Assembly: GCA_028284065.1 (NCBI GenBank)
Contig: JANQSJ010000014.1
Location: 1-64,000, forward strand
Direction of reading: 5' to 3'
Source: Parvularculaceae bacterium
Lineage (GTDB): Bacteria > Pseudomonadota > Alphaproteobacteria > Caulobacterales > Parvularculaceae
Length of the DNA stretch: 64,000 nucleotides
Part shown: piece after piece, positions 2,246 to 21,918 of the stretch
Position numbering within the stretch: the first letter of the stretch is position 1
Layout: the number at the start of each line of letters is the position of its first letter
Made by a program: the position numbers and the translations under genes
The notes under the pieces: generated by a model
Databases searched by the model: none
Told to the model about the DNA's origin: nothing
What the model saw: the letters and a program-made list of their open reading frames with translations, nothing else

Positions 2246-5200
2246 ATGATTAGTTTTTTACGCTCTTCATTAAAGCTCGCGCCGCAGAAAAACCCGCCGC
2301 AGGGGGCGTCGCCGCTGGCGCTTCGGGCGCTGGAGCCGCGCATCCTGCTCGACGCCGCAGGGGCCGCGACCGCCGCCGAGGGCCTTGCTGACGAAGCCGC
2401 TTCGCAGCAAGCCGACGCGGCGCTCGACCTATCGGGAGCGCCGTCCAATTCGCCGGCGGCCGTCCCAGACATCGATCTCCTCGCCGAGGCGGGCGCGCCG
2501 CCCCATGGCGCGCGCGAAATCGTTTTCATTGATGCCGGGGTCGCGGACCCGGCCGCCCTCCTTGAAGGCGTCAGTCCCCATGCGGACGTTCATTTCCTGA
2601 ACGCGGACGAGGACGGCGTCACCCAGATCGCGGACATTCTGGCGCAGTACGAAGACATCGGCGCGGTCCATATCCTCGCCCATGGCGATCAAGGCCGCCT
2701 TATCCTCGGCGACGCCGTCCTCGACCTCGCCAGCATGACCGGCGAGCACGCGGATGAGCTCAGCGCCATAGGCGCCGCCATAGGGATTGACGGCGACATA
2801 CTTATCTATGGTTGCGACTTCGCCGGCGGCGAGGCGGGCCTTGAGGCGGCGATGCTCCTCAGCAGGCTGACGGGCGCCGACGTCGCCGCCTCCACAGACG
2901 ATACCGGCCATGCCGACCTTGGCGGCGACTGGGATCTTGAAGCGGAGATCGGCGCGATCGAAACGCTCGGGATTGCGGTGAGCGGGTGGAGCGGTCTCCT
3001 GGCGCCGACGAATATCATCGTCAATGGCGATTTCTCGTCGGGGACCGCCGGATGGACCGTTACCGGCGACGGCGGCGTCGGGAGCGGTATATTTATTTGG
3101 GGCACGGACGGCGGCGCCGGGACGCTTACCTATGATGCGCCGCTGACCGGCCTGCAAACAGGTCCGGCGGCGAGCGGCGCCGCGCAGATCCAGCTCGACG
3201 TCGCCTGGAACAATGGCCAGCCGGATCTCACCGGCACGCACACGCTCGACATTCAGATCGGCGGCGTCACCTACGCCCGACTGACGACCGGCGGCCAGAA
3301 CGGATCGACGGCGACAATCGATTACCTGAACGGCGCCGCCGGTTCGCCGTCGACGGCCGCGGTGAGCCCGGCCTTCGTTAGCAGTCCGGGGACCATCTAC
3401 ACGTCCGTCACGATTGATCTGCCGAGCACAGTCGCAGATACGGGAACGCTTCAGTTCGTCTCGTCGGCGGGCGGCTCGCGCGACGACATCGGCATCGACA
3501 ATGTTCAGGTCATCGTCGAGAGCAACACGCCGCCGACAGCCGCCGACGACGCCTACACAGTGCGGCCCGGCCAGGCGCTCACCATCGATCCCGTCGGCGA
3601 CAATGACGCGGACCCCGATCCCGATACGCTGACGATTACGCAGATTATCGACCCCGCGGACGTCGCCAATCCGATCACGCCCGTCGCCGGCGCGCCGATC
3701 ACGCTGACGTCCGGGACGCAGGTGACGCTGCGCGCCGACGGCGGGCTTGACGTCGTTACGCCCGCCGGCCTGTCGCCGAGCGACGCGTTCGATTATGTCG
3801 TTGAAGACGGCGCGAGCGGTTCGGCCCAGGCGACGGTGACGCTAAATGTCGACACTGATGGCGACGCCGTCATCGACGCCGCCGACATCGACGACGACAA
3901 TGACGGTATTCTTGATACGGAGGAGGGTTTCGTAGAGAGCGGCGACATCACGACCGCCACCTCTGACGGGGGCCTCGATATTTCCGGCGAAGCCTCCGCG
4001 CCGACCGGCGCCACCTTCAGCGCCGATGGAACCAAGTTCTATGTCATCAGCGCCTTCAACGACGACGCCGTCTTTCAATACGCACTGGCGACGCCTTTCG
4101 ACATAACCTCGGGCGTTACGTTCGAGACCTCCTTCGGGATCGCCGACGACAACCCGACGTCCGTAACGTTCAGCGCGGACGGATTGCGCATGTTCATCCT
4201 CGGCGCCGATAGCGACCAGATTGTTCAGTACCGTCTGGACACGAATTTCGACCTCAGCGGAACGGTCACGAATGAAGGCGCGCTGGTCATCGCCGGCGAC
4301 ACAAGCGCGCCCACCGGAATCCATTTCAGCCCCGACGGGACAAAGCTCTATATCTCTGAGAGCCAGGGCCCGATTCACGAGATCCTTGAATACGACGCCG
4401 CCGCGCCGTTCAATATTCTGCCGGCGACGGGCGGCGGCATAAGCCTGGTCAACAGGCTTGACGTCCACGCGACGCAAAACACGCCCCATGGCGTCAGCCT
4501 GTCGCCTGACGGCGCACGCCTCTACATCGCCGGCCTCAGCGACGACACGATAGATATTTTTGACCTCGCGACGCCCTTCGATATCTCAACTGCCTCGGCG
4601 ACGCCAAGCGCAACGATTGACCCCGGCTTTATTAATCCGTTCGATGTTTGGGTTCGTCCCGACGAGACTGGGTTCTACGCCGTTGACGCCAGTGGCCTAG
4701 AAATTGTTCAGTTTACGGTTAAATCCGGCGCCCGCGACACCGACGGCGACGGCGTTTTCGACCATCTAGACATCGATTCAGACAATGACGGGATCACCGA
4801 CAATGTCGAGGCGCAGGCGACAAACGCCTATGTGGCGCCGAGCGGAAATGACGCCGATGGCGACGGCCTCGACGCCGTCTATGAAGGCGCGGGTGACGAA
4901 GGCCTGACGGCCGTCGATACGGACAGCGACGGAACTGCGGACTATCTCGACGAAGATAGCGACAATGACGGCCGACTTGACATCGCCGAGCGCGGCGATA
5001 GCGGCCCAACGGCGAACCCGACATTCGAAGACGCCGACTTTGACGGCCTGGACGACGACTTCGAAGGCGCCGACGCCAATGATGGCTATGACGTCAATGA
5101 CGAAAATGTTTCGACCGCCTCGGGCGACGCCATTGGGACACTTGCCGAGTACAATCTGAGCGCATCGCCTCTGCTCGCAAGCGACTTTTCGAACTATTCG

Positions 5201-8200
5201 GCCGGCGCGACCGACCTCAGCTTCAGAAGCGCCGACATAGACGGTGACGGCGTTCGTGACGACATTGACATCGACGACGATAATGACGGTATCCGCGATA
5301 CGGATGAAGTGATCGCGGCGATAACCGAAGCCGAACTTGATGGATCGCTTGACGTCTCCGGCGACGCCGACTTTCCACAGGACCTCGCCTTCAGCAGCGA
5401 CGGATCGCGGCTTTACGTCCTTAATCTGACGACGGACACCATATTCCAGTATGAGCTGACGACGCCATTTGACATAGACGGCGGCGCAACGCTTCAAGGC
5501 TCTTTCGTCGTCACCAGCCAGGAACCGACTCCGAACGGCCTCACTCTTAGCGACGACGGAACGAAGCTATTCATTAGCGGCAACACCGGCCGCGTCAATC
5601 AATACTCCCTGACGACCGCGTTTGACGTCACGTCAGGCGTTTCCCATGACGGCGACTTTTCGCTGCCTGCCGGCGAGAACCGCCCGAATGGACTGGAGTT
5701 CAGCGAAGACGGCCTTAGCGTCTTTGTGATCGGCGAAGACAATGAAGTCGTGCACCAGTATAACCTTAGCGCGCCGTTCGACATAACCGCCGGCGTGACG
5801 CTCGTCCACACACTGAACATCTCCGCGCAAGACCTCGAAGCCGAAGGGATCGCTTTCAGCAATGGCGGAAGATTGATGCACATTGTCGGACGCGGCGCGG
5901 GCGCGGTCCACACATATGAATTGTCAACACCCTTCAATCTGACGACAGCCGCGTTCCGCTCGACGCGTTCAGTGATCGCCGATGCGACCAGCCCCCGCGG
6001 CGTCGCGTTTACGCCGGAGGGCGAAAGCTTCTTTGTCGTCGATGGCGCGACAGGGGTAGTCTTCGAGTACAATACCGATACGGACCGTGATGGGGTCGCA
6101 AACTATCTCGACATCGACAGCGACAATGACGGAATCACCGACAATGTGGAGGCGCAGGCGACGAATGCCTATGTCGCGCCGTCCGGCAACGACGCCGACG
6201 GCGACGGCCTCGACGACGTCTATGACGCCGACGACACGGATATCGATCCGGCCGCGTCCGCCGGCCTGACGCCGGTAAACACGGATAGCGACGCAACTGC
6301 CGACTATCTTGATACGGACAGCGATAATGACGGCCGACTTGACATCGCCGAACGCGGCGATGGCGGGCCGACCGCGAACCCGACCTTCGAGGACGCCGAC
6401 GGCGACGGCCTCGACGACGACTTCGAAGGCGCCGACGCCAATGATGGCTATGACGTCAATGACGAAAACGTCGCGACCGCGCCAGGCGCGACGGTGGCCA
6501 ACCTCTCCGAATACGCGCTTAGCGCCGATCCGTCGTTGACCGACGACTTTTCAAACATCGCAGCCAGATCAATCGACCTCTCCTTCCGCGACGCCGACGC
6601 CGATAATGATGGCGTGGCGGACGCCGACGACATCGATGATGATAATGATGGCGTTCGTGATACGGACGAAGGTGGTGATTACGGCTTCTCCGACGAGGGA
6701 GCGCGGGCGGTTTGGTGGCCAACGAATGGCGGCAACGGCGCGTCGGCCGTCGTGATCAACAGCGATGTAGTCGCTTCCGCTGAGGACTTTGTCGCCGGCC
6801 CAGGGATGACCGCCACGACGGGCACTGGCGATACGGCGCTGACGGGCGTCGACCAACCCGACTTCGCCGGCGCCCTCGCAGATGGCGACTATCTCCAGTA
6901 CGAGTTCACCACTGTGTTCGGCGGTGACTTCCTTGGCGTCGATATGCGCGGAGGCGGACAAAATGTGGGCCGTGACATCACAGTCGTCATTTCGAACGAC
7001 GGGTTCGCCACGTCGGAAATCCTGCTTCAAGACGCGAACCACATCAATGACGCTGTTAACCTGGGAAGCAACGCCCAGGGTCACGAATTCGACCAACCCT
7101 ATGCGCTCGATCCTAATACGACGTATTCCGTGCGGATTTATCACTATAACTCGACCATTGGGACGGATATCCGCGTCGACAACGTCAGCTTCCGGATTAA
7201 TCCGTTCGTCGACACAGACGCGGACGGCGTCGCCGACCGCCTCGACCTCGATTCTGACAATGACGGGATCGCCGACAATGTGGAGGCGCAGGCGACGAAC
7301 GCTTATGTCGCGCCGTCCGGCAATGACGCCGACGGCGACGGCCTCGACGACGTCTATGACGCCGACGACGCGGATATCGATCCGGCCGCGTCCGCCGGCC
7401 TGACGGCGATCGACACCGATGGCGATGCAATAGCAGATTATCTTGATACGGACAGTGATAATGACGGCCGACTTGACATCGCCGAGCGCGGCGATGGCGG
7501 TCCGACGGCGAACCCGACATTCGAAGACGCCGACGGCGACGGCCTCGACGACGACTTCGAAGGCGCCGACGCCAATGACGGCTTCGACCCCAATGACGAA
7601 AACATCGCGACCGCGCCAGGCGCGACGGTGGCCAACCTCTCCGAATACGCGCTTAGCGCCGATCCGTCCTTGGCCGACGATTTCTCAAACATCGCAGCCA
7701 GATCAATCGACCTCTCCTTCCGCGACGCCGACGCCGATAATGATGGCGTGGCGGACGCCGACGATATTGACGACGACAATGACGGAATTCAGGACGTTCT
7801 GGAACGGGGAGCGACAGTTCTTAGTACGCCCGAAGACGCGTCTTCGTCCGACCCAGAATTAGCTAATCTTCAGAGCACCCGCGACGGCACGACCGCGGGG
7901 CCGTCCTTCGCAATTGACAACGCCAATGACGACGGGCCGATTTCCGATGTCACGTACACCTATGCGACGCCACTCGATGGCGTAACGTCGGTCGTCATCT
8001 GGAACAATGGCGGGGACGTGTTCACCGATGGTCAGAGCATTGGCGTTATCGGCCAACTGACCTTACGCAATTCGCTTGGCGATGTCGTCTTCACTACGAC
8101 GAATGTCGCCATTCCGGAGGGCTCAGCCGGAGATCCCTTCACGCTAGACCTTCCGGGTACATATGACAACGTCGCATCCATGGAATGGCTGTCGATAGAC

Positions 8201-11200
8201 GGCCCAGCGGGCGGCCTCGAAGGGGTCGCGTGGCGCGAGGTGGCGTTAGCGAGTTTGCCGGCTCGCGATTCGGACAACGACGGCGTCTTTGACCATCTCG
8301 ACCTCGATTCGGACAATGATGGGATCACCGATAATGTGGAGGCGCAGGCGACGAACGCATATATTGCGCCGAGCGGAAATGACGCCGACGGCGACGGCCT
8401 CGACGACGTCTATGACGCGGACGACGGGGACGTCGATGCTGCGGCGTCTGTTGGCCTTGCGCCAGTCGACAGCGATGTCGACGGAATGGCCGACTATCTT
8501 GATACGGACAGCGACAATGACGGTCGGCTCGACATCGCTGAGCGCGGCGATGGCGGCCCGATGGCGAACCCGGCGTTCGAGGACGCCGACGGCGACGGCC
8601 TCGACGATGATTTCGAAGGCGCCGACGCCAATGACGGCTACGACGTCAATGACGAAAATGTCGCGACCGCGGCGGGGGCGACGGTGGCCAACCTCGTCGA
8701 ATACGCACTCGGCGCCGATCCGGCGCTCGCCGCCAGCCTGTCGAACTATGATCCGTTAAGCGACGGCGCGCCGACGATCGATCTCCTGTTCCGCGATGAC
8801 AATGTCGCGCCCGTTGACGGCGACGAAGCCGTTGCGACGGCCGAGGACACGGCCCTGAATGTTATCGACGGGTCGGCGGGCGATCTCCTCGCCAATGCGA
8901 CGGACGCTGACGGCGATGCGCCTTTCATCCTCGATTTCACCGTGGGCGGCGCGACCTACGCCGCCGGCGCGACGGCGACCCTCGCCGAAGGGACGCTCAC
9001 CATCAATGCGAACGGGTCGTATACGTTCATTCCCGCCGCCAACTTCAACGGCGCCGTTCCGCCGGTCGCCTACACAGTATCGGATGGAAACGGGGGAACC
9101 GACGCCTCAACGCTTACGATCGCCGTGACGGCCGCCGGCGATCCGCCCGCCATCAATCTCAGCGGGTCCGCCGATGTTGAAAATCTCACAAACTTCGCGC
9201 CGACGACCCTGGTCTTCACGACGCCGACGATCATCAATGCAGGGCAAACCGAAGCGGACGATGGCGTCGGCAATGGCGAAACGCTCATCTACGCAAATGC
9301 GGGCGTCATTGGCGGAACGCCGATCGACATCGTTGCGACAATCATCTCAAACACAACGAACACAGCCTTTCAAGCGGATGTCTCGAGTGGCGCCCTTGCC
9401 TATTCGGTGCGTTGGGACGGCGATGTCACTGTTCGGTTTGACGTCGTTGAAGCGGGCTCAATGACCCAGATTCAAGGCGATTTCGCGTTTCAGTCGAGCG
9501 ACCTGGATGGGGCGAGACGGGTTGAAAGCCTCATTTTCGACACCGACGACCTCGCCTTTTATCGCCTGAACGCGGATACCTCGATCACCGTTTCGGAGGC
9601 CGACGGCCGGACGACATTCCGGGGCGGGACGAATGGTCCCGCCACCAACCCAGGCACATCCCTGGAGTTCGGCCTGGACGACGTTTCCGGCTTCACCCTA
9701 ACGTTTAGGCAGGACACATCGCTAACAACGCCTGGTGGGCGGACGATTTTTCTCGATGGCGACTTTACGTCAATCTTAACCACTCCTGTCATGGCGCTGG
9801 GGAATGTCGACTATGCAACCAGCTTCACCGAGGGCGATGCGCCCGTGGCTGTCGCCGACTCCGACGCGGACGCGTTCGATGCGGATGACGACATCGTCTC
9901 GCTTGCGATTGTCGCCGGCGGCATCGCGGATGGCGCGGCGGAACAGCTGACGCTCGCCGGCGCGATCTTCGACCTGTCCGTTGACGGCGCGGCAAGCGGC
10001 GTCGCAATCGGCGGCGGCACGCTCGATATCTCCTATGTCGCCGCAACCGGCGCATTTGCGGTGACAAATGCGATGGGCGCATCCATCCCCATGCCCGACG
10101 CCGCCCTCGACGCGCTTATTCGCTCAATCGCCTACGAGAACGCGTCCGAGGACCCGACGCCGGGCGATCGCGCGTTCGTCTTTACCGCGACGGACGCGGA
10201 AGGCGCATCGTCCAACCCCGCCACGACTATCGTTTCGGTCACGCCCGTAAATGATGCGCCCGTCGACGGCGACGAAACGGCCTCGACGGCGGAAGACACG
10301 CCGCTGACCGTCGCCGACGGCGCGCCCGGCGATCTCCTCGCCAACGCATCGGATGTCGACGGCGGCCCGCTGGCGATTGTCGACTTTTCGGTCGGCGGGA
10401 CGACCTATGCTGCGGGCGTCACGGCGACGCTGCCTGAGGGCGACTTGACCGTCAACGCCAACGGCTCCTTTACATTTATTCCCGCTACGGATTTCGCCGG
10501 GACCGTTCCGCAGGTCTCCTACGTCGTCTCAGATGGCGCGGGCGGGCTCGATGTCTCCACCCTCGCGATATCCGTGACGTCGTCGAATGACGGCCCCATC
10601 GCGACGGACAACGCCTACGCGACCGAGGAGGACGTAAGCGTCGCCGGGAACGCCATCCTCGACGCGCCCGCCGACAGCGACGCCGACACAAGCGTTTTGA
10701 GCCTCGCGGCAGGATCGATCGGAACGTTCGCCACCGCCGAAGGCGGCGCGATCGCGCTCAACCCAGACGGCGCCTTCGTATACGCGCCGCCAGCGAATTT
10801 CATCGGGACCGACACGTTCGATTACACCGTCACCGACGGGGCGCTCACCGACGTCGGCCGCCTGACCTTCACCGTCAGTCCGGTGAACGACGCGCCCGTC
10901 GCTGTGGCGAACGTCTATGAAACCACCGAGGATACTGAAGTTCTTGGAAATCTCATCGGCGACGACACCGGCGCCGGCGCCGACTTCGACGTCGACCTCG
11001 ACGCGCTTCAGATCAACGCCGGGTCGATAGGCGCTTTTGTCACGACGGCGGGCGGCGCCATTTTCATCACCCCCGATGGCGCCTTCGCTTATGCGCCGCC
11101 GCCTGACTTCAATGGGACCGATACGTTCGATTACGTCATTACCGACGGCGCGCTGACGGCGAGCGCCACTGTGACGTTTTTGGTCAACGCCGTTAATGAC

Positions 11201-13225
11201 GGACCGGTCGCCACCGACAACGCTTATCAGACGGATGAAGACGTTGCGGTGTCAGGCGACGCAATTCTCGACCTCCCCGCGGACCGCGATATCGACACGC
11301 CGTCCCTCAGCCTCGCCGCCGACTCGATTGGGACTTTCGCAACGAGCGAGGGCGGCAGGATCACACTCGCCGCCGACGGCTCCTTCACCTATGCGCCGCC
11401 AGCGGATTTCGTTGGAACGGACACGTTCGACTATACGGTGACCGACGGCGCGCTCACGGACGTCGGCAAGCTGGCCTTTACGGTCGGCGCAGTGAATGAC
11501 CCGCCTGTGGCGATCGCCAATCTTTACGCCACGCTTGAGGATTCTGGGGTCGCCGGCAATCTCATCACGGATGACACCGGCGCCGGCGTCGACTTCGATG
11601 TCGATCTCGACGCGCTCCGTATTCCGCCGGAATCGGTCGGGACCTTCGCCACGCCGGCGGGCGGCGCGATCACGATCGCCCCGGACGGCGCGTTCACTTA
11701 CACGCCGTTGGCTAATTTCCACGGGGAAGATACGTTCGTCTACGTCATTACCGACGGCGATTTGTCCGCCTCGGCGGCCGTCTCATTCCAGATCAGCCCC
11801 TTGCGCGATGCGCCGACCGACGGCGACGAGGCGATCGCCATCGCGGAAGACACACCGGCGCGGGTCAACGCCGGGACGGATAGCGGCCTCCTCGCCAACG
11901 CCGCCGACGCTGACGGCGACGCGCTCTTCATAGTGGATTTTTCGGTAGGCGGAGGCACCTACGCGGCCGACGAAACCGCTTTCCTTCCACAGGGCGCGCT
12001 CACCATACGCGCAGACGGGTCTTACGAATTCGTTCCGGCTCCGGACTTCAATGGTCCCATTCCGCAGATCGCCTATACCGTTTCGGACGGCTTCGGCGGC
12101 GCCGATACGTCAACGCTCGACATCACGGTGACGCCAGCGAACGATGCGCCGCGCGCCGCAGCGGGGGGCGCCCTCGGCGACAGGGCGAACGCAGTAGACG
12201 ACCCGGTGTCCGCGCAGACGTCGGACGCATTCACAGACGTCGACGGGGACGATTTGACGTTCTCTGCGGATGGACTGCCGCCGGGCCTCGCCATTGACGC
12301 CGCGACCGGCGTCATATCAGGCGCGATCGCGCCGGAAGCCGCCTTGATCGCGGCCTATGAGGTTACCGTGACAGCGCGCGACGAGACTGGCGCCAGCGTC
12401 TCGCTGACCTTCGTCTGGCGGATCACCGACGCGGCGGCAGCAGACATTGAGACCATAATCCGGCTTGGCGGCGGTCCCGGCGGCGACGAGACGAATGCGA
12501 CGGACGCCGATAGTCCGTATATCGAGCTCCCAGAAACCCTTTGGGCGCAGGCGCGCGCCGCGGCCGGCATTGACGCGGACGGCGCGGTTATAGCGGCGGC
12601 AAATGCCGCGTCTCACCTGGAAGGGTTGACCGCGATCGACGCCGAGCCTTCGGTTCTCGCCGCGGTCAATGGCGCCGACCCGCTTGGCGGGCTTTCCCCG
12701 GAGCCGATTAGCGACGCGCGCGCGCATGCGCTTATCGCAGACGCGCAGGCGCGCTTTGGCGGCGGCGATGCGTCCATCGACTTGCTTCAGGTCCGCGGCT
12801 TCTCCTTAGCCGGGTCCGGCTCTGGCGCGTTCGCGATCGACAGCGTATCGCGAGGCGGCGTCGTCTATCTAAGGGCGTACGACGCCTATTCGTCTTCACA
12901 AAAAAGCGCCTACACGGATTTTAATGTCACCTTGGGCGATGGACGCGCGACGCCGCGGTGGATTTCGACATCGCCGGACGGGCTAGTTGTCATCGACCGC
13001 CCAGCGAACGTGGAAACGGTCGTCCTCAAGATTGTAGGTATACGGAACGGAGGCGGAACCGATGCGCGCCTGGTTGAAATCGACACGCTGACCGGAGAGA
13101 TCCTTCGCCGTGAGGCGGCGAACCGCGCCTATGGGCCGAGTTTCTCCGAAGCGGTCGAGCGCGCCGCGTCGGCCGGGGCCGCCCATGAAGAAAGCGTCAA
13201 CAAACTGCTAGACATTGAACGGTAG
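2246..13225 (+). CDS. Giant LEPR-XLL/DUF4347 calcium-binding surface adhesin
   Basis: A 3,659-residue modular protein, probably exported and involved in attachment or biofilm. It has no Sec signal peptide; instead the LEPR-XLL motif (LEPRILLDAA, residues 29-38) sits near the N-terminus. DUF4347 follows (~91-251, with H146 and C190), then a jelly-roll-like domain (~253-427). Acidic thrombospondin-3 type calcium repeats (DxDxDG) alternate with beta-propeller-like stretches (~585-830, ~1040-1275) and two other globular inserts. Cadherin-like NDAPV...EDT modules lie at ~2185-2300 and ~2670-3300, a putative Ig module at ~3310-3400, and a unique C-terminal region at ~3410-3659. I see no RTX nonapeptide. 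Export genes follow 76 bases downstream. ATG 2246 has GAGG six bases before it. Domain names are established families; the adhesin role and export route are inferred. Confidence 0.85.
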   Translation: MISFLRSSLKLAPQKNPPQGASPLALRALEPRILLDAAGAATAAEGLADEAASQQADAALDLSGAPSNSPAAVPDIDLLAEAGAPPHGAREIVFIDAGVADPAALLEGVSPHADVHFLNADEDGVTQIADILAQYEDIGAVHILAHGDQGRLILGDAVLDLASMTGEHADELSAIGAAIGIDGDILIYGCDFAGGEAGLEAAMLLSRLTGADVAASTDDTGHADLGGDWDLEAEIGAIETLGIAVSGWSGLLAPTNIIVNGDFSSGTAGWTVTGDGGVGSGIFIWGTDGGAGTLTYDAPLTGLQTGPAASGAAQIQLDVAWNNGQPDLTGTHTLDIQIGGVTYARLTTGGQNGSTATIDYLNGAAGSPSTAAVSPAFVSSPGTIYTSVTIDLPSTVADTGTLQFVSSAGGSRDDIGIDNVQVIVESNTPPTAADDAYTVRPGQALTIDPVGDNDADPDPDTLTITQIIDPADVANPITPVAGAPITLTSGTQVTLRADGGLDVVTPAGLSPSDAFDYVVEDGASGSAQATVTLNVDTDGDAVIDAADIDDDNDGILDTEEGFVESGDITTATSDGGLDISGEASAPTGATFSADGTKFYVISAFNDDAVFQYALATPFDITSGVTFETSFGIADDNPTSVTFSADGLRMFILGADSDQIVQYRLDTNFDLSGTVTNEGALVIAGDTSAPTGIHFSPDGTKLYISESQGPIHEILEYDAAAPFNILPATGGGISLVNRLDVHATQNTPHGVSLSPDGARLYIAGLSDDTIDIFDLATPFDISTASATPSATIDPGFINPFDVWVRPDETGFYAVDASGLEIVQFTVKSGARDTDGDGVFDHLDIDSDNDGITDNVEAQATNAYVAPSGNDADGDGLDAVYEGAGDEGLTAVDTDSDGTADYLDEDSDNDGRLDIAERGDSGPTANPTFEDADFDGLDDDFEGADANDGYDVNDENVSTASGDAIGTLAEYNLSASPLLASDFSNYSAGATDLSFRSADIDGDGVRDDIDIDDDNDGIRDTDEVIAAITEAELDGSLDVSGDADFPQDLAFSSDGSRLYVLNLTTDTIFQYELTTPFDIDGGATLQGSFVVTSQEPTPNGLTLSDDGTKLFISGNTGRVNQYSLTTAFDVTSGVSHDGDFSLPAGENRPNGLEFSEDGLSVFVIGEDNEVVHQYNLSAPFDITAGVTLVHTLNISAQDLEAEGIAFSNGGRLMHIVGRGAGAVHTYELSTPFNLTTAAFRSTRSVIADATSPRGVAFTPEGESFFVVDGATGVVFEYNTDTDRDGVANYLDIDSDNDGITDNVEAQATNAYVAPSGNDADGDGLDDVYDADDTDIDPAASAGLTPVNTDSDATADYLDTDSDNDGRLDIAERGDGGPTANPTFEDADGDGLDDDFEGADANDGYDVNDENVATAPGATVANLSEYALSADPSLTDDFSNIAARSIDLSFRDADADNDGVADADDIDDDNDGVRDTDEGGDYGFSDEGARAVWWPTNGGNGASAVVINSDVVASAEDFVAGPGMTATTGTGDTALTGVDQPDFAGALADGDYLQYEFTTVFGGDFLGVDMRGGGQNVGRDITVVISNDGFATSEILLQDANHINDAVNLGSNAQGHEFDQPYALDPNTTYSVRIYHYNSTIGTDIRVDNVSFRINPFVDTDADGVADRLDLDSDNDGIADNVEAQATNAYVAPSGNDADGDGLDDVYDADDADIDPAASAGLTAIDTDGDAIADYLDTDSDNDGRLDIAERGDGGPTANPTFEDADGDGLDDDFEGADANDGFDPNDENIATAPGATVANLSEYALSADPSLADDFSNIAARSIDLSFRDADADNDGVADADDIDDDNDGIQDVLERGATVLSTPEDASSSDPELANLQSTRDGTTAGPSFAIDNANDDGPISDVTYTYATPLDGVTSVVIWNNGGDVFTDGQSIGVIGQLTLRNSLGDVVFTTTNVAIPEGSAGDPFTLDLPGTYDNVASMEWLSIDGPAGGLEGVAWREVALASLPARDSDNDGVFDHLDLDSDNDGITDNVEAQATNAYIAPSGNDADGDGLDDVYDADDGDVDAAASVGLAPVDSDVDGMADYLDTDSDNDGRLDIAERGDGGPMANPAFEDADGDGLDDDFEGADANDGYDVNDENVATAAGATVANLVEYALGADPALAASLSNYDPLSDGAPTIDLLFRDDNVAPVDGDEAVATAEDTALNVIDGSAGDLLANATDADGDAPFILDFTVGGATYAAGATATLAEGTLTINANGSYTFIPAANFNGAVPPVAYTVSDGNGGTDASTLTIAVTAAGDPPAINLSGSADVENLTNFAPTTLVFTTPTIINAGQTEADDGVGNGETLIYANAGVIGGTPIDIVATIISNTTNTAFQADVSSGALAYSVRWDGDVTVRFDVVEAGSMTQIQGDFAFQSSDLDGARRVESLIFDTDDLAFYRLNADTSITVSEADGRTTFRGGTNGPATNPGTSLEFGLDDVSGFTLTFRQDTSLTTPGGRTIFLDGDFTSILTTPVMALGNVDYATSFTEGDAPVAVADSDADAFDADDDIVSLAIVAGGIADGAAEQLTLAGAIFDLSVDGAASGVAIGGGTLDISYVAATGAFAVTNAMGASIPMPDAALDALIRSIAYENASEDPTPGDRAFVFTATDAEGASSNPATTIVSVTPVNDAPVDGDETASTAEDTPLTVADGAPGDLLANASDVDGGPLAIVDFSVGGTTYAAGVTATLPEGDLTVNANGSFTFIPATDFAGTVPQVSYVVSDGAGGLDVSTLAISVTSSNDGPIATDNAYATEEDVSVAGNAILDAPADSDADTSVLSLAAGSIGTFATAEGGAIALNPDGAFVYAPPANFIGTDTFDYTVTDGALTDVGRLTFTVSPVNDAPVAVANVYETTEDTEVLGNLIGDDTGAGADFDVDLDALQINAGSIGAFVTTAGGAIFITPDGAFAYAPPPDFNGTDTFDYVITDGALTASATVTFLVNAVNDGPVATDNAYQTDEDVAVSGDAILDLPADRDIDTPSLSLAADSIGTFATSEGGRITLAADGSFTYAPPADFVGTDTFDYTVTDGALTDVGKLAFTVGAVNDPPVAIANLYATLEDSGVAGNLITDDTGAGVDFDVDLDALRIPPESVGTFATPAGGAITIAPDGAFTYTPLANFHGEDTFVYVITDGDLSASAAVSFQISPLRDAPTDGDEAIAIAEDTPARVNAGTDSGLLANAADADGDALFIVDFSVGGGTYAADETAFLPQGALTIRADGSYEFVPAPDFNGPIPQIAYTVSDGFGGADTSTLDITVTPANDAPRAAAGGALGDRANAVDDPVSAQTSDAFTDVDGDDLTFSADGLPPGLAIDAATGVISGAIAPEAALIAAYEVTVTARDETGASVSLTFVWRITDAAAADIETIIRLGGGPGGDETNATDADSPYIELPETLWAQARAAAGIDADGAVIAAANAASHLEGLTAIDAEPSVLAAVNGADPLGGLSPEPISDARAHALIADAQARFGGGDASIDLLQVRGFSLAGSGSGAFAIDSVSRGGVVYLRAYDAYSSSQKSAYTDFNVTLGDGRATPRWISTSPDGLVVIDRPANVETVVLKIVGIRNGGGTDARLVEIDTLTGEILRREAANRAYGPSFSEAVERAASAGAAHEESVNKLLDIER
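4769..8802 (+). repeat. Four near-identical TSP3 cassettes inside the adhesin gene
   Basis: Four ~500-560 bp copies occur at about 4769-5307, 6110-6670, 7244-7792 and 8300-8802. Each encodes SDNDGI.DNVEAQATNAY, then a run of DxDGD calcium loops, then SDNDGRLDIAERGD and DDDFEGADANDG. Copies 2 and 3 are almost identical in DNA over long stretches. Copy 1 is shorter in the middle and copy 4 lacks the final DNDG loop. Different globular modules lie between copies, so this is a cassette-and-spacer layout rather than a simple tandem array. Confidence 0.85.
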
Positions 13226-13301: not shown

Positions 13302-14846
13302 ATGAAGAAGCTGCTTCTTGTCATGGCGACTCCATTTCTGCTGACGGCATGCGTCGTCTCGCCTCGCCCGTTCACCGCCGAGGAGCTCGACGCCAAGGGC
13401 AGTGAGCGGATCAACGCTTTTCTGTCCGACCAGGAGGCGGTGACGAAGCCGATCACGCTCTATGAGGCGATGGCGCGGGCGTTGAAATACAATCTCGACT
13501 ACAAGGTGGAGCTGATGGACGCGGCGTTGAGGCGCCGTGAGCTGGACCTCGCCCATTTTGAGCTGCTGCCGGACCTCGTTGCAGGCGCGGGCTATGCGGG
13601 GCGCAATAACTTCAGCGGCGCAAGCTCCAGCCAGCTGCTTGGCGATCGCACGGTCGGGCCGCAAACGCTCGTCGCGTCGACGTCCGCGGAACGGCGCATC
13701 CTGACGGACGATTTGACCATCAGCTGGGACGTACTTGATTTTGGCCTCTCGTACGTTCGCGCCCGGCAGAAGAGCGACGAAGTTCTGATCGCCAATGAAC
13801 GGCGGCGAAAGGTCGCCAGCCGCATCATTGAAGACGTACGCACGGCGTACTGGCGCGCGGTCAGCGCCGAGCGCCTGATCGACAAGCTGGCGCCGCTCGA
13901 GGCGGAAATTGACGACGCGCTCGCCGCCTCCAGGCGCGCCTACCGCAGACGCAACGCCGCGCCCCTTACGGCGCTCACTTACCAACGCGAGCTTCTCGGC
14001 GTGCGCGAGGAGATCCAGCTTCTGCACCAGGAGCTCAGCGTCGCGAAGCAACAGCTCGCCGCGCTGATGAACGTCGATCCCGCGACGCCATTCGAGCTCG
14101 TCATGCCGAATCGCGACGATTCCTCCATCGACGTCGATGTCGACCCGGCGACGATGATCGAGATTGCGCTCATGCTGCGGCCGGAGCTGCGCGAGATATC
14201 CTACCGCCAGCGCATCAATGAGAAGGAAGCGACCGCCGCGCTCCTCGACCTCTTGCCGAGCCTGAGGGCGTATGGCGGCTTCAACCACGACAGCAATGAT
14301 TTCCTGTTCAACAGTTATTGGGCGGGATGGGGCGCGCGCGCCAGCTGGAACCTCGTCAACGTCTTTCGCTACCCAGTGCGCAAGAAGACAGTGGAGGCGC
14401 AGCAGGATCTCTTGGACCAGCGCGCGCTCGCCCTCACCATGGCCGTCGTGACGCAAGTTCATGTGAGCGCTACTCGTTTCGCCATCGTCAAACGCCGTCT
14501 CGACACCCAGCGAGGCGGCCACGACGTCCAGTCGAAAATTCTCCGCCAGATTGATTCAGGCTATAAGGCGGGGCGGATCAGCCGTCAGACATATATCCGT
14601 GAAAAGATGAACGGCATCGTCGCGGAGGCGAAATACGACATCGCCCTCGCCGAACTTCAGAACGCCTTCGCCAACATCCAGGCGTCCATGGGCGTCGACC
14701 CGATCAACGCCGAGATCGACGCGGAGGAGAACGTCGAAACGCTCGCCGCGCGGCTACAGGCGCACTGGGAACGGCGCGGCGACCGGACCGTCTATGGCGA
14801 TGCGACGGGAACGGCGAAGCCCGTCGCCGTAGCGGAGCTGAACTGA
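13302..14846 (+). CDS. TolC-family outer membrane lipoprotein
   Basis: A 514-residue outer-membrane efflux protein. The N-terminus is a lipoprotein signal with lipobox LLTAC, making Cys17 the predicted lipidated residue. Two TolC-type halves follow, with long helical stretches (for example LIDKLAPLEAEIDDALAASR) expected to form the periplasmic tunnel. It starts 76 bases after the adhesin stop, in an AT-rich gap, with GGAG eight bases before ATG. Its TGA overlaps the next ATG by one base, so it is co-translated with the HlyD-type adaptor. TolC proteins form the outer-membrane exit duct of type I secretion and efflux systems. Here the adjacent giant protein is the obvious substrate, which is an inference from context. 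A general efflux role is the alternative. Confidence 0.88.
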   Translation: MKKLLLVMATPFLLTACVVSPRPFTAEELDAKGSERINAFLSDQEAVTKPITLYEAMARALKYNLDYKVELMDAALRRRELDLAHFELLPDLVAGAGYAGRNNFSGASSSQLLGDRTVGPQTLVASTSAERRILTDDLTISWDVLDFGLSYVRARQKSDEVLIANERRRKVASRIIEDVRTAYWRAVSAERLIDKLAPLEAEIDDALAASRRAYRRRNAAPLTALTYQRELLGVREEIQLLHQELSVAKQQLAALMNVDPATPFELVMPNRDDSSIDVDVDPATMIEIALMLRPELREISYRQRINEKEATAALLDLLPSLRAYGGFNHDSNDFLFNSYWAGWGARASWNLVNVFRYPVRKKTVEAQQDLLDQRALALTMAVVTQVHVSATRFAIVKRRLDTQRGGHDVQSKILRQIDSGYKAGRISRQTYIREKMNGIVAEAKYDIALAELQNAFANIQASMGVDPINAEIDAEENVETLAARLQAHWERRGDRTVYGDATGTAKPVAVAELN

Positions 14847-15637
14847 TGCCGCGCGCGCGCCGCACGCTCGCCGCCACAGGTCTGACAGTCGTTGGACTCG
14901 CAGGCCTCGCCGCGCTGGCGCCCGGCGCAACGATGGCGCAAGACGCCGCGGCGCAAGACAGGACTGCGGCGGCCGACATTATTCGCGGCGTCATCAAGGC
15001 GCGGCGCGAAGCAGTCATCCAGTCGGACCTCAGCGCGCCGGTTGCGGAAGCGCCCAAACGCACCGGCGACGCTTTCAAGAAGGGCGACTTGTTGCTGCGC
15101 TTCGAGTGCGAAGCGCAATTGGCCGAGGCGGCCGCGGCCGCCGCCGCCTACCGCGCCGCCAGAGCCCGCCATGACAGCGACGTTGAAATGAAGGCCCATG
15201 ACGCGGCGGGGCGTTTCGACGTCAGCCTGTCGAAGGCGGATATGGAGGAGGCGGACGCCCGCGCCCGCGCCGCGCGCGCCCGCGCCAAACGCTGCGATAT
15301 CCTCGCGCCTTATGACGGCAAGGTGGCGGAGCTCTGGATCAATCCCCACGAAACGCCGCGCGTGGACCAGCCGCTCATCAAGATCGTCGGCGTGGAGGAG
15401 ATGGAGCTGCGCCTCATCGTGCCGTCGGCCTGGCTTGTCTGGCTGCAGCCGGGAGAGGCCTTCAACTTCGCGGTCGATGAGACAGGCGAAACCCTCGCCG
15501 CCACGGTGGACCGCATCGGCGCGGAGGTGGACGCCGTCAGCCGCACCGTCCCCATCATCGCGCGCGCCACAGCGCCCGCGGGCGCCATCCTTCCCGGCAT
15601 GAGCGGGTCGGCGACCTTCCGGCGGCCGGCGGGATAG
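14846..15637 (+). CDS. Periplasmic HlyD/RND-type adaptor protein
   Basis: A short (263-residue) membrane-fusion protein. The N-terminus looks like a cleavable signal peptide ending near ATMAQ. A split lipoyl-like domain can be seen (AVIQSDLSAPVAEAPKRTGD and later CDILAPYDGKVAELWINPHE) around a short Ala/Arg-rich hairpin, then a beta-barrel region ending in LPGMSGSATF. It overlaps the TolC stop by one base and is followed by the next adaptor after 4 bases. It most likely bridges the inner-membrane components and the TolC duct. The hairpin is much shorter than in HlyD itself, which suggests a compact contact with TolC or a dependence on the other two adaptor-like proteins encoded downstream. 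Confidence 0.82.
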   Translation: MPRARRTLAATGLTVVGLAGLAALAPGATMAQDAAAQDRTAAADIIRGVIKARREAVIQSDLSAPVAEAPKRTGDAFKKGDLLLRFECEAQLAEAAAAAAAYRAARARHDSDVEMKAHDAAGRFDVSLSKADMEEADARARAARARAKRCDILAPYDGKVAELWINPHETPRVDQPLIKIVGVEEMELRLIVPSAWLVWLQPGEAFNFAVDETGETLAATVDRIGAEVDAVSRTVPIIARATAPAGAILPGMSGSATFRRPAG

Positions 15638-15641
15638 ACCA

Positions 15642-17060
15642 ATGACGGTCGCCGCCAGACTGTCCGCATGCGCGTCGGGCGCCGCAAATGCGCCAGCCGC
15701 AAACGGCGCGCGCGGCGCGGCCGGCGGAACGGCCGAAAAATTAGCGTACGCCGCATCCATGCTGACGTTCGAAAGCAAGGTGCGCACACTGAACGATGAG
15801 CGGGAGCTTTTCGCCAGCCTCTGCAATGAGACCCGCGCCTTCCTGCCGTTCCGCCAGGCTTTTCTTCTGAAGCGCGGGACCGTTCGCGACGACATGGAGA
15901 TCATCGCCGCATCGAGCCTCGCCGTCATCGACCGCGACGCGCCGTTCGTGCGTTGGCTGGAGAAAATCGCAAAGCGAATGGGAGAGGACGCCGGCGCGGA
16001 CCGTCAGCAATTCTTCAGCCTGCCCGCCTATTGCGACGACGCGGACGAAGAACGCCTCACCTATCCGTTTCCGGAATTTCTCTGGACCCCGTTGAAGGAC
16101 GGCGATGCGGTGATCGGCGGCTTCATCGCCACGCGTGAAACGGTATGGCAGGAGGCGGACGCCGCGGCGGCCGACCGACTGGCGGCGCTATATGCGCATG
16201 CCTGGCGCTCCATAAAGGGCCGCGGCCGGATCGCCGGCCGGAGGCTCGTGACGCCCCCGCGCGCCATCGCCGGCGCGCTTCTCGCCGCTGCGATCTCTCT
16301 CTGCCCCATTTCGATCACTTCGCTCGCGCCGATGGAGATCGCGCCGAAAGACGCGTTTGTCGTCGCTGCGCCGTTCGACGGGGTTGTGGAGGACATCCTC
16401 GTCGACCAGGGAAAGGAGATAGCCGCGGGAACGCCGGTCATCGCCTTCGAAGACGTTCTTTATAAAAATGACTTCGAGATTGCGGATCGAAATGAAGCGG
16501 TGGCGAAGGCGCGGCTGCTCCGCGCGTCGCAAGGGGCAATCGGCGATCCAGAGGCGAAACGCGATCTCGCCGTCGCCAGCGCCGAGCACGCGCTTGCGGA
16601 AGCCGAACGCGCCTATGCGAAGGACCTCCTCGACCAGACCGTCATCGCCGCGCCCCATGGCGGCGTCGCCATTTACACCGACAAGCGCGACTGGGCCGGT
16701 CGCCCCGTCGCCGCCGGCGAGGCGATCCTGCAGATCGCCGACCCGGGCGAGACACGCATCTCAATCGACCTGCCGGTGAAGGAGAGCCTGGAGATTGACG
16801 CCGGCGCAAGGGTCAAGGTCTTCCTTGATTCCAGTCCGCTGCGGCCATTCGAGGCGACGCTCGTCGAGATCGGTTATTCCGCCCGCGCCGACAAGCGGGA
16901 CGTCCTCTCCTACCGTCTTTATGCGGAGTTGAGCGATCGCACGGCGGCGCCGCGGATCGGCGTTCAGGGAACCGCCCAGGTCTTCGGCGGCCGTGCGCCG
17001 CTCATTTACGTCGTCCTGCGCCGTCCCCTCGCGGCCCTTCGGCAGCTAACGGGCTGGTGA
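15642..17060 (+). CDS. Membrane HlyD-type adaptor with GAF-like N-terminal domain
   Basis: A 472-residue protein with three parts. Residues ~33-195 look like a GAF-type cytoplasmic sensor (ERELFASLCNETRAFLPFRQ, then PLKDGDAVIGGFIATRE). A single membrane segment follows at ~207-229. A periplasmic HlyD-type part begins with the lipoyl-like segment VVAAPFDGVVEDILVDQGKE, continues through a short helical hairpin (AVASAEHALAEAERAYAKDL) and ends in a beta-barrel. The predicted topology puts the N-terminal domain inside the cell. Genes with a GAF-like part fused to an adaptor are uncommon. The fold assignment of the N-terminus is by pattern only and less certain than the HlyD part. It lies four bases after the previous gene and three before the protease gene. 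Confidence 0.78.
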   Translation: MTVAARLSACASGAANAPAANGARGAAGGTAEKLAYAASMLTFESKVRTLNDERELFASLCNETRAFLPFRQAFLLKRGTVRDDMEIIAASSLAVIDRDAPFVRWLEKIAKRMGEDAGADRQQFFSLPAYCDDADEERLTYPFPEFLWTPLKDGDAVIGGFIATRETVWQEADAAAADRLAALYAHAWRSIKGRGRIAGRRLVTPPRAIAGALLAAAISLCPISITSLAPMEIAPKDAFVVAAPFDGVVEDILVDQGKEIAAGTPVIAFEDVLYKNDFEIADRNEAVAKARLLRASQGAIGDPEAKRDLAVASAEHALAEAERAYAKDLLDQTVIAAPHGGVAIYTDKRDWAGRPVAAGEAILQIADPGETRISIDLPVKESLEIDAGARVKVFLDSSPLRPFEATLVEIGYSARADKRDVLSYRLYAELSDRTAAPRIGVQGTAQVFGGRAPLIYVVLRRPLAALRQLTGW

Positions 17061-17063
17061 GCA

Positions 17064-19184
17064 ATGGCCGCGACGCGCCTCACGCCCGAATCGCGCCTGC
17101 CGGCATTGCGCGAGGACTTGCAATTGCTGGAGGGCGCGCGGCGGCCGGACGGATCGGCAGGCTGGCTCGTGTTCGACCCCGTCCGGCACCGATACTTCGA
17201 GATCGACCGGAAAAGTGAGCTGATGCTGCGACATTGGCGCGCGCACAGCGTCGGCGACCTGCTCGCGTCCGTCGGGCCGGACACGGAGCTGTCGCTCGAC
17301 GCCGTCGATGCGCTCCTGCGCTTCCTCTTCGCCAATTCCCTCACCGAGGCGCCGCCCGACGGCGACTTCAGGAACTACGCCGTCCAGGCGAATGCCGCAA
17401 AGCGCTCCCTCCTGAAATCGGCGCTCCACAATTATCTCTTTATACGGATTCCACTCGCGCGGCCCCACGCCTTCCTAAAGCGGACGCAACGACTGACCGC
17501 GCCCTTCTTCACCGCGCAATGGTGGGCGTTCATAGGCGTCGTCGCCGCCGCCGGCCTTTACCTCGCGTCGCGGCAGTGGGACCAGTTCGTCCATACATTT
17601 CTGTACTTCTTCAATCTTCAGGGGCTTGCGTTTTACTTTCTAGCGCTTGGCGCCGTGAAGATCGCTCACGAGCTTGGCCATGCCTACGCCGCGACCCGCT
17701 ATGGCTGCCGCGTCACAACCATGGGCGTCGCGTTCCTGGTCATGTTCCCCGTTCTCTATACGGATACGACCGACAGCTGGAAGCTCGCCTCGCGCCGCAA
17801 ACGCCTCGCGATCACGGGCGCCGGCGTCGCCGTTGAGCTTATGATCGCCGCCGTCGCGACTTTTCTTTGGGCGTTTCTGGATGACGGCCCGGCGCGGAGC
17901 GCGGCGTTCTTCCTCGCGACCGTCAGCTGGACCATGAGCCTCGCCGTCAATCTCAATCCGCTCATGCGTTTCGACGCCTATTACTTTCTGAGCGACGCCA
18001 TCGGCGTCCAGAACCTGCAGGCGCGTTCCTTCGCCCTCGGACGATGGGCGCTTCGGGAAGCGCTTTTCGGCTTCGGCGATCCGCCGCCGGAGGCGATGGG
18101 CGGGCGCCGGCGCGCCGGCCTCATCGCCTTCGCCTGGGCCGCCTGGGTTTACCGCTTTTTTCTCTTTGTCGGCATCGCGCTCCTCATCCACCATTTCTTC
18201 TTCAAACCGCTGGGCGCAGCGCTTCTTGTAGTTGAGCTAGGCTGGTTCATTGGCGCGCCAGTCATAAATGAGATGAATGAGTGGCTTGGGCGCGCAGACG
18301 CCATGCGCCTCAATCCACGCACGCTGCGCGCAGGCGCCTTCGCCGCAATTGCGCTGGCGCTGACGGCGTTACCCTGGCGCACGGACGTGCGCATTCCCGC
18401 CGTACTCGAAGCGTCTGGCCATATCAGCCTCTACGTGCACCGACCGGCCATCGTGGCCGCCCGCCACGCTGCGTCCGGCGACACGGTGTCGACAGGCGAC
18501 ATATTGTTCGAGCTGCGCTCGCCAGCGCTTGAGTTCGATATCGCGCAAACGCGCCGCCGCATCGGCGCCGTGCGCGCACGGCTAAGCCGCATCGCTGCGG
18601 ACGCCGGCGACCGCGGCCAGACAATCGTGCTCGGCCGCGAGCTTCAAAGCCTTCAGAGCCGCCTCGCCGGTCTCGGAAAGGAGCGCGCGCTCCTCACCGT
18701 CCGCGCCCCTTTCGACGGCGTCATCGTCGACATGAAGTCGACGCTGGCGCCCGGGCGCTGGGCGCATGACGGCTCGCCGCTCGCCGATATCGTCTCAACA
18801 GAGGGCGCGCGCATTCGCGGGCTCGTCCGCGCCGACGACGTTTCGCGCATAAGGCCCGGCGCGAGAGCCGTCTTCGTCCCCGATCTGATCGAACGTGCGA
18901 AAGTGCCGGGCGCGATCGCCGCCATCGACGGCGCGAACGCGCCTGTCGTCGCCATGCCGGCGCTGGCGTCTCGATATGGCGGTCCGGTTGCGGTCTCCGA
19001 GGTCGCGCAATCCCTGACGCCCTTGGGCGCATGGTACCCTGTGACGATGACGATAGACGGCGTGGCGGCGGCGCCGACCCAGACCGTTCGGGGTGAAATT
19101 CGAGCTCGAGGCGAGGCGGAAAGCGCCGCCGTGAAAATCTGGCGGCGGATCGTCCATGTACTGATCCGCGAAAGCGCGCTCTAA
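17064..19184 (+). CDS. Site-2 type M50 metalloprotease with PqqD-like and HlyD-like parts
   Basis: A 706-residue polytopic protein. Residues ~25-105 resemble the PqqD/RRE winged helix that binds leader peptides (GWLVFDPVRHRYFEIDRKSE). The membrane core has about eight segments. The zinc motif HELGH (202-206) lies in or beside one, and the second M50 motif NPLMRFD (N298, D304) lies in a later one, so the expected metal ligands are present. From ~460 on there is a HlyD-like part: a lipoyl segment, a helical hairpin (SRIAADAGDRGQTIVLGREL) and RAPFDGVIVDMKSTLAPG, then a barrel. This is the last gene of the operon. M50 enzymes cleave membrane-embedded or membrane-near peptides; cleavage of the adhesin N-terminus is a proposal, not shown. 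Similar multi-part M50/HlyD proteins occur in peptide export loci. Confidence 0.85.
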   Translation: MAATRLTPESRLPALREDLQLLEGARRPDGSAGWLVFDPVRHRYFEIDRKSELMLRHWRAHSVGDLLASVGPDTELSLDAVDALLRFLFANSLTEAPPDGDFRNYAVQANAAKRSLLKSALHNYLFIRIPLARPHAFLKRTQRLTAPFFTAQWWAFIGVVAAAGLYLASRQWDQFVHTFLYFFNLQGLAFYFLALGAVKIAHELGHAYAATRYGCRVTTMGVAFLVMFPVLYTDTTDSWKLASRRKRLAITGAGVAVELMIAAVATFLWAFLDDGPARSAAFFLATVSWTMSLAVNLNPLMRFDAYYFLSDAIGVQNLQARSFALGRWALREALFGFGDPPPEAMGGRRRAGLIAFAWAAWVYRFFLFVGIALLIHHFFFKPLGAALLVVELGWFIGAPVINEMNEWLGRADAMRLNPRTLRAGAFAAIALALTALPWRTDVRIPAVLEASGHISLYVHRPAIVAARHAASGDTVSTGDILFELRSPALEFDIAQTRRRIGAVRARLSRIAADAGDRGQTIVLGRELQSLQSRLAGLGKERALLTVRAPFDGVIVDMKSTLAPGRWAHDGSPLADIVSTEGARIRGLVRADDVSRIRPGARAVFVPDLIERAKVPGAIAAIDGANAPVVAMPALASRYGGPVAVSEVAQSLTPLGAWYPVTMTIDGVAAAPTQTVRGEIRARGEAESAAVKIWRRIVHVLIRESAL

Positions 19185-19308: not shown

Positions 19309-20151
19309 TCACAAGCGTGAAGCGTGCCAGCGCAGATGGTCGGAGATAAACGTGGCGACGAAATAGTAGCTGTGGTCATAGCCCGGCCGAAGACGCAGTT
19401 GCATCTTGATCCCCGCGGTTTCGCAGGCCGAGGCGAAACGCTCGGGCCGCAGCTGCGACTCCAGGAACTCGTCCGCTGCGCCCTGATCAATAAGTACGGC
19501 GTCAACGTGCGGACTGAACCGGGCGCCGTCCGCCACGAGCGCCGTCGCGTCATAGCGCCGCCAATGCGCGCGATCAGAACCCAGATAGGCCGCAAACGCT
19601 TTTTCGCCCCACGGAACTTCCGACGGCGCGACAATCGGCGCCAGCGCCGAGACGCTGCGGAAAATATCCGGGTTCCGCAGCGCCATGGTGAGAGCGCCAT
19701 GGCCGCCCATGGAATGTCCGCTGATCCCGACGCGAGAGGGATCGACGCCGAGGCGATCGATCGCGAGGGGCAGGAACTCCTTCTCGATATAGGTCTGCAT
19801 GCGGTAGTTGCGGGACCAGGGCTCTTCGGTCGCATCCACGTAGAAACCGGCGCCGAGGCCAAGGTCATAGGCGCCGTCAGGCGCATCCGGAATATTGTCT
19901 CCTCTCGGGCTCGTGTCGGGAACCAAGAGCGTCAGCCCGAGTTCGCTCGCGACGCGCTGTGCGCCCGCCTTCATGATGAAATTCTCATGCGTGCAGGTGA
20001 GGCCAGAGAGCCACAACAGCGCCTCGCCCGTCGCCCGCTCGCGCGGCGGCGCATAGACCGCGAAACGCATCGCGCAGCGGCAGGCGTCGCTGTCATGTTC
20101 GTAAACGGACTGAACGCCGTCAAAAGACCGGGCGTCGCCAAGCTTCTTCAT
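19309..20151 (-). CDS. fghA: S-formylglutathione hydrolase
   Basis: A 280-residue esterase-D-type hydrolase of normal length. It hydrolyses S-formylglutathione to formate and glutathione, the second step of glutathione-dependent formaldehyde detoxification in the cytoplasm. The nucleophile elbow GHSMGGHGA gives Ser147. The likely acid is Asp227 in DQGAADEFL and the likely base His260 in GYDHSYYF. The oxyanion-loop segment LSGLTCTHENFIMKAGAQ is conserved. GGAG lies upstream of the ATG. It is downstream of frmA and a GNAT gene on the same strand with short gaps, so the three are probably one transcript. Confidence 0.95.
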   Translation of the reverse strand: MKKLGDARSFDGVQSVYEHDSDACRCAMRFAVYAPPRERATGEALLWLSGLTCTHENFIMKAGAQRVASELGLTLLVPDTSPRGDNIPDAPDGAYDLGLGAGFYVDATEEPWSRNYRMQTYIEKEFLPLAIDRLGVDPSRVGISGHSMGGHGALTMALRNPDIFRSVSALAPIVAPSEVPWGEKAFAAYLGSDRAHWRRYDATALVADGARFSPHVDAVLIDQGAADEFLESQLRPERFASACETAGIKMQLRLRPGYDHSYYFVATFISDHLRWHASRL

Positions 20152-20193
20152 TCTCGCGCTCCGTGATCGGGGCCGGGCCGCCGGCCTGCGCCG

Positions 20194-20682
20194 TCAGCAA
20201 AGATCAAGCTCCATATAGACGACATCCGGTTCGGGGTTCTGATAATATGCCCCGATCGATCGAAACCCGAGGTCGCGATAAAGGCCAAGCGCAGCCTCAA
20301 GCCGGGGAAGCGTATCGAGCCGCATAGTCTTGTACCCGGCGCCGGCCGCCTCTCGGATCAGCGCTTCCGCAAGCCGCCGGCCAAGCGAAATGCCTCGATA
20401 GGCCTTGCGGACATAGAGCCGCTTCATTTCGCATTTGCCTTCGCCCAGGGGCTTCAGGCCGACCGCGCCTGCGGGCGCGGCGTCGACGCGGGCAAGGAGC
20501 AGGCGCTCATAGGTCGCCGGAAACGTCGCCATTTCCTCGTCAAAGCCCTGGAAGCAAAGGTCAACGCCAAGAAACGCTGCGTATTCCTGGAAAAGAAGCT
20601 TCACCTCGCCCACATCGGTATCCGAGACGGCCCGTGAAACCGTGACGCCCGGGGAAAGTTCGCCTTTCACGCTTGCGGCCAT
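20194..20682 (-). CDS. GNAT-family N-acetyltransferase
   Basis: A ~162-residue single-domain GNAT enzyme. The acetyl-CoA binding region is clear: CEMKRLYVRKAYRGISLGRR (motif A, with R-x-x-G-x-G/A-like spacing) followed by LAEALIREA and the C-terminal LYRDLGFRSIGAYY. The acceptor substrate cannot be told from sequence. A TTG at 20703 directly abuts the frmA stop; I prefer the ATG at 20682, which has a GAGGGG-like site before it. Its position between frmA and fghA suggests co-expression with formaldehyde detoxification, but a functional link is only inferred. Confidence 0.85.
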   Translation of the reverse strand: MAASVKGELSPGVTVSRAVSDTDVGEVKLLFQEYAAFLGVDLCFQGFDEEMATFPATYERLLLARVDAAPAGAVGLKPLGEGKCEMKRLYVRKAYRGISLGRRLAEALIREAAGAGYKTMRLDTLPRLEAALGLYRDLGFRSIGAYYQNPEPDVVYMELDLC

Positions 20683-20703
20683 AACCGCCTGCCCCTCAAG
20701 CAA

Positions 20704-21813: not shown

Positions 21814-21918
21814 GGCGTGACGCTCCAGGCGAATTGGCGATAGCCGCATCCTAGCGCGCGTTGGCGCACCCGCAAACGACCTAGGCTCGACGCGACGGCT
21901 TACGGGGGCCGAACCTAA

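Follow-up and report, generated by a model that had tools for sequence, protein, structure and literature searches.

A protease–adaptor fusion as the putative leader-reading gate of a proposed, widespread export system for LEPR-tagged giant adhesins

Results

The locus encodes a giant adhesin, a TolC channel and three adaptor-type proteins

The window, by which we mean the whole 64,000-nucleotide stretch of DNA that was analysed, carries a cassette of genes on one strand, with intergenic gaps of 3–76 bases or a one-base overlap (Table 1). In order, these genes encode a giant adhesin, a TolC-type outer-membrane channel, a periplasmic adaptor (MFP), an inner-membrane adaptor that we call GAF-HlyD, and, last, a 706-residue protein in which an RRE-like domain, a site-2 protease (S2P) core and a HlyD-type domain are fused. 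The open reading frame of the last protein is real, and its homologs share 35–51% identity with it along the whole chain. The GAF-HlyD protein is unusual in that a GAF domain is followed by one likely transmembrane segment and then a HlyD domain. Pfam detects the GAF domain in 6 of 43 relatives, and the protein might be a small-ligand sensor that gates export.

The adhesin gene is closely preceded by an IS1595-family transposase gene (999–1973). At the ortholog level the cassette is absent from the sampled genomes of the same taxonomic order, which together with the neighboring transposase suggests that it was gained horizontally. The genes adjoining the cassette on the other strand (19309–21849), for an S-formylglutathione hydrolase and a class III-like zinc alcohol dehydrogenase, apparently serve formaldehyde detoxification and are unrelated to it.

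Table 1. Coordinates of the cassette genes and of the features within their products.
Feature	Position	Strand	Remark
Giant adhesin, 3659 aa; LEPR motif, DUF4347, cadherin/Ig repeats	2246..13225	+	presumed substrate
LEPR leader motif LEPRILLDA, adhesin residues 29–37, D-type	2330..2356	+	NCBIfam NF012209 over cut-off
DUF4347 domain of adhesin	2519..2971	+	2e-46
TolC/OEP outer-membrane channel	13302..14846	+	OEP 5.7e-33
RND-type periplasmic adaptor (MFP), signal peptide	14846..15637	+
GAF-HlyD inner-membrane adaptor	15642..17060	+	directly upstream of protease gene
RRE–M50/site-2 protease–HlyD fusion, 706 aa	17064..19184	+
RRE/PqqD-like domain, putative leader-binding, residues about 12–95	17097..17348	+	models, structural matches, profile comparison
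Site-2 protease core, seven TM, residues 151–437	17514..18374	+
HELGH, zinc-binding, residues 202–206	17667..17681	+	H, E, H invariant
D304, third zinc ligand, in NPxMRFD	17973..17975	+	invariant
HlyD/MacA-like adaptor domain, periplasmic, residues 438–706	18375..19181	+

The 706-residue protein joins a predicted RRE domain to a protease and an adaptor

Pfam places Peptidase_M50 at residues 191–292 (9.5e-9) and HlyD_3 at residues 545–624 (7e-11) of the fusion protein. In NCBIfam the protein scores highest against the daptide intramembrane metalloprotease NF041824 (7e-41), at 140.5 bits and under the equivalog cut-off of 300; judged by this score, the protein is not a daptide protease. A weak match to YydH/LiaK (NF058609, 3e-6) is confined to the protease core. 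The AlphaFold2 model of the whole chain, built with 61 homologs, has a mean pLDDT of 89.8 and contains, in order, an N-domain of three strands and three helices, seven transmembrane helices, and a HlyD domain with a two-helix hairpin.

Because structure searches with the whole model returned the HlyD part only, the RRE domain was also modelled alone (pLDDT 83). Its predicted fold is winged-helix-like, a three-stranded sheet with three helices. The best VIA-align match is FusB1 (6jx3, Z 9.3, 2.6 Å over 80 residues), and TbiB1 (Z 8.9), CteB (7.7), MccB (7.2), LynD (7.1) and ThcOx (6.7) also rank high, with PqqD (3g2b) at Z 4.7; these six top matches are all RRE domains, the parts of RiPP enzymes that bind leader peptides. 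GdmN (Z 7.8) is the sole high-ranking match outside RiPP systems. Foldseek, run on this domain alone, returned a similar ranking with E-values of about 0.1. Profile comparison by hhalign aligns the domain in register with the PqqD family (E 3e-5, probability 72%). The 706-residue protein itself gives no match to Pfam PqqD; two end-to-end paralogs exceed the gathering score of that family (9.5e-9 and 1.6e-6).

At the other end of the chain, model residues 438–689 resemble MacA, EmrA and MexA with Z-scores of 13–16, and are predicted to form a barrel-sandwich hybrid with a two-helix hairpin (residues 487–542) on the periplasmic side. The first-pass annotation of this DNA had proposed a PqqD/RRE-like domain at residues ~25–105, an intramembrane protease core with HELGH and NPxxxFD motifs, and an adaptor with a lipoyl-like hairpin. 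All three assignments are borne out, the first with its bounds moved to about 12–95. Predicted structure makes the protein an RRE protein, its motifs and topology make it an M50 protease, and it is a HlyD-type adaptor as well.

Counted across the 61 homologs, loops 2, 4 and 6 contain 2.3, 6.9 and 4.3 lysine plus arginine residues per sequence, and loops 1 and 3 contain 0.3 and 0. Together with the seven transmembrane helices, these counts place the N-domain on the cytoplasmic side of the membrane and the HlyD part on the periplasmic side, where the earlier reading had also put it. HExxH is present in all 87 relatives and the aspartate ligand motif in 86. H202, E203, H206, N296 and D304 are invariant in the 61-row alignment, and the zinc ligands remain so in a diverged second subfamily (20 sequences; see below). 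This invariance argues that proteolysis is probably used.

The cassette is shared by distant bacteria

A single-protein scan of genome contigs gave no match; relatives were found by an alignment-based scan. The order TolC, MFP, GAF-HlyD, RRE-S2P-HlyD is kept in most complete loci with a giant gene adjacent, and in most of 80 contig loci from Pseudomonadota (including Pelagibacteraceae), Nitrospirota and Desulfovibrio. It recurs on plasmids of E. coli, Kosakonia, Variovorax, Azospirillum, Burkholderia and Niveispirillum. In virtually all complete loci the GAF-HlyD gene immediately precedes the protease gene, and the adhesin gene sits at one or the other end of the cassette, depending on the locus. 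Some loci have no TolC gene within 10 kb and may use another TolC.

The protease also occurs in Nitrospira and other phyla, and it is plasmid-borne in E. coli, Citrobacter and Kosakonia. Its gene is found in 24 of 5426 complete E. coli genomes at identities of at least 99%; no phage was found with the protein. Individual loci illustrate this range. One E. coli record (NZ_CP081687, 2346–22097) holds a whole cassette whose adhesin bears the motif LESRQLFDG. Pectobacterium aroidearum L6 has two cassettes in one genome, with the giant gene upstream in one and downstream, alongside a downstream TolC gene, in the other. Three loci from Pelagibacteraceae and other marine Alphaproteobacteria show that small genomes keep the cassette together with a giant LEPR gene.

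Adhesin partners carry an N-terminal LEPR motif

The N-terminus of the window's adhesin scores above the 17-bit cut-off of NCBIfam LEPR-XLL (NF012209), a motif noted before on a giant Vibrio protein (PMC10868602). Among 4332 open reading frames in the cassette loci, the motif occurs in 40 N-termini, all of giant or contig-truncated proteins, and never past residue 130 in 1.03 million residues of those frames. The consensus of the form found in the window, which we call D-type, is LExRx[ML][FL]D[AG]A.

The DUF4347 domain has an HG...YGC pair in 31 of 41 motif-bearing partners, and this pair recalls the caspase-like cysteine peptidases of clan CD. The single cysteine in the 3659 residues of the window's adhesin lies at this site. 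From these residues, DUF4347 could be a self-processing domain.

Protease and motif occur together and vary together

With orthologs defined by E ≤ 1e-150, we find the protease in 75 of the 349 genomes sampled from the phylum, DUF4347 in 89 and both in 69, spanning 25 families (Fisher p 4e-47, kinship ignored). The motif follows the same division, being present on 24 of 26 DUF4347 proteins from genomes with a protease ortholog and on 2 of 19 from genomes without one. Of these two exceptions, one comes from a genome that is 57% complete and the other (G513) adjoins a protease of the second subfamily.

A survey of the class found seven genomes with a LEPR match and no protease. The matches of three (G056, G182, G280) were rejected as true leaders, being chance matches beside unrelated genes, and the other four lie in frames of 32–268 residues. 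Among 13 protease-positive genomes in the same survey, two (G028, G091) carry motif variants missed by the LEPR model, and others have truncated contigs.

Proteases of the second subfamily (A2 E-values 1e-87 to 1e-110) are built of these domains in identical order, and their genes adjoin GAF-HlyD-like, MFP-like and giant genes. The partners of this subfamily carry a Ser version of the motif, here called S-type, [LMI]E[PED]Rx[LMF][LF]S[AG], in 9 of 9 cases, these nine being the only ones with readable N-termini. All 64 distinct partners of the first subfamily have Asp at that position, and the split between Asp and Ser is significant (Fisher 1e-11). The motif is nearly invariant inside each subfamily. 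The first-pass annotation had suggested looking for co-evolution between the PqqD-like part and adhesin N-termini, and it is found here in the form of subfamily and motif that change together. Between the RRE domains of the two subfamilies several conserved positions differ, whereas the catalytic residues are the same, as would be expected if the RRE domain reads the leader.

Three genomes (G353, G359, G622) contain both subfamilies. In the second-subfamily locus of G622, the LEPR giant gene is separated from the protease gene by a gene for a giant FHA-like protein with a signal-like N-terminus of its own (contigs L237, 13028–19900, and L251, 3–6517).

Discussion

A proposed export route

We propose, with a probability of about 0.68, that the cassette is dedicated to the export of one giant adhesin and that the 706-residue protein serves as the cassette's inner-membrane gate. 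The first-pass annotation had likewise seen recognition, cleavage and delivery joined in one chain, as would fit such a gate, and the present results support that reading. By its sequence, the adhesin has no Sec-like signal peptide and bears the LEPR leader motif at its N-terminus. The cytoplasmic RRE/PqqD-like domain would bind the leader motif, a step that is strongly supported by predicted fold, genomic linkage and co-variation. The leader would then be handed to the seven-helix S2P core and cut within the motif or immediately downstream of it. The daptide leader is reported to be removed by MpaP, which is itself a site-2 protease fused to an RRE domain (PMC10036551), and with the conserved zinc ligands this precedent leads us to infer a similar cleavage here. 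From architecture and fixed gene order, the C-terminal HlyD domain, GAF-HlyD and the soluble MFP would form a periplasmic adaptor on the cassette's own TolC, through which the adhesin would pass to the surface.

How the chain would cross the inner membrane is a separate matter. A search for Walker A and signature patterns found no ABC transporter within any cassette of either subfamily, limited flanks included in the search; the same pattern picked up occasional ABC proteins in those flanks. The cassette has no recognisable NTPase. With no ABC protein in any cassette, the chain would either be moved by the gate itself or pass through a general translocon that the system borrows. In its fullest form, the proposal is of a separate secretion system in which a leader-reading intramembrane protease fused to an adaptor takes the place of the type I ABC transporter, recognises and cleaves the N-terminal leader, and by itself provides or opens the path of giant adhesins across the inner membrane; its two subfamilies would use distinct leader codes, D-type and S-type. 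We advance this form only tentatively, at somewhat below even odds.

Alternative explanations

A narrower reading is that the fusion protein is a maturation protease only. A general translocon would carry the adhesin across the inner membrane, leaving it tethered by its N-terminus; the RRE-S2P part would cut the LEPR tether, and the HlyD parts would guide the released protein to TolC. Site-2 proteases have no known role as translocases, which speaks for this reading, as does the restriction of E. coli plasmid cassettes to what the host offers. Entry into the translocon would, however, be hard to explain, since 40 of 41 adhesins lack a Sec-like hydrophobic core near the motif, whereas most MFP and TolC controls have one. 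We regard maturation alone as unlikely, if worth keeping in mind.

It is also conceivable that this is ordinary type I secretion, powered by an unlinked ABC transporter, with the 706-residue protein as an accessory. The TolC and HlyD parts are alike, and ABC exporters are encoded elsewhere in most host genomes. However, the pattern search shows no ABC gene in the cassettes of either subfamily, the cut-off of the type I transporter LssB is reached by just 5 of 15 cassette-bearing genomes or records and by nothing on the E. coli plasmid, and none of 26 complete adhesins has three or more GGxGxD (RTX) repeats. Export of this ordinary kind thus seems improbable to us.

The motif could instead be an inherited part of DUF4347 ancestry, unrelated to the protease, given the homology among the N-termini of the main subfamily's adhesins. 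Its rarity on DUF4347 proteins from protease-less genomes argues against this, and so do G356 and G488, which have no DUF4347 at all and yet carry the motif on their second-subfamily partners. Moreover, the three DUF4347 partners of the second subfamily (G474, G513, G622) are all Ser-type, and therefore the version of the motif tracks the protease rather than the passenger. Shared ancestry is a very poor explanation of these patterns. Hardly credible, finally, is a daptide-like RiPP or peptide maturation system that merely neighbors an adhesin gene: the best NCBIfam match is a daptide protease and the RRE fold is typical of RiPP systems, but in the annotated neighborhoods we saw no RiPP modification genes, and the conserved motif lies on adhesin N-termini and co-varies with the protease.

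Comparison with known systems

The gate protein proposed here most closely recalls the daptide proteases MpaP/DapP (NF041824; PMC10036551), in which an N-terminal RRE domain is likewise fused to a site-2 protease. Those proteins have no reported HlyD domain, act on short peptides and are linked to RiPP modification genes and ABC transporters, unlike the present cassette, in which HlyD is fused to the protease and a giant adhesin is the presumed substrate. The epipeptide protease YydH/LiaK (NF058609) shares an M50 core acting on a ribosomal precursor and differs in that its substrate is a peptide. If the leader is read as we propose, the range of RRE recognition, so far small peptides, would grow to include proteins thousands of residues long.

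Type I secretion, whether by HlyB-HlyD-TolC or by the giant-adhesin variant LapBCE, resembles the cassette in its TolC, its HlyD-type adaptors and its giant adhesin substrate. It differs in having an ABC transporter, absent from the cassette, and RTX repeats, absent from the adhesins examined; in addition, the adaptor here is fused to a protease and the putative signal is N-terminal rather than C-terminal. Because the cassette lacks the defining ABC component, we do not count it among type I secretion systems, although its workings at the outer membrane may well be similar. DDxP proteins were considered as a match for the system and set aside, since they have been assigned to ordinary type I secretion (PMC7730722). 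With no obvious energy source, the cassette raises the question of how a giant protein crosses two membranes.

LEPR-XLL (NF012209), a motif at the N-terminus of giant bacterial proteins, has been named without being explained. In the open literature, a scope that leaves out most subscription journals, we found neither a mechanism for it nor a description of this export system. Here the motif is tied to a dedicated protease-adaptor, which would give it a function and a partner, and the leader code leads to direct predictions within reach of a few point mutations. Set beside these known systems, the data point to an undescribed, widespread bacterial export system for LEPR-tagged giant adhesins, with the 706-residue protein as its gate.
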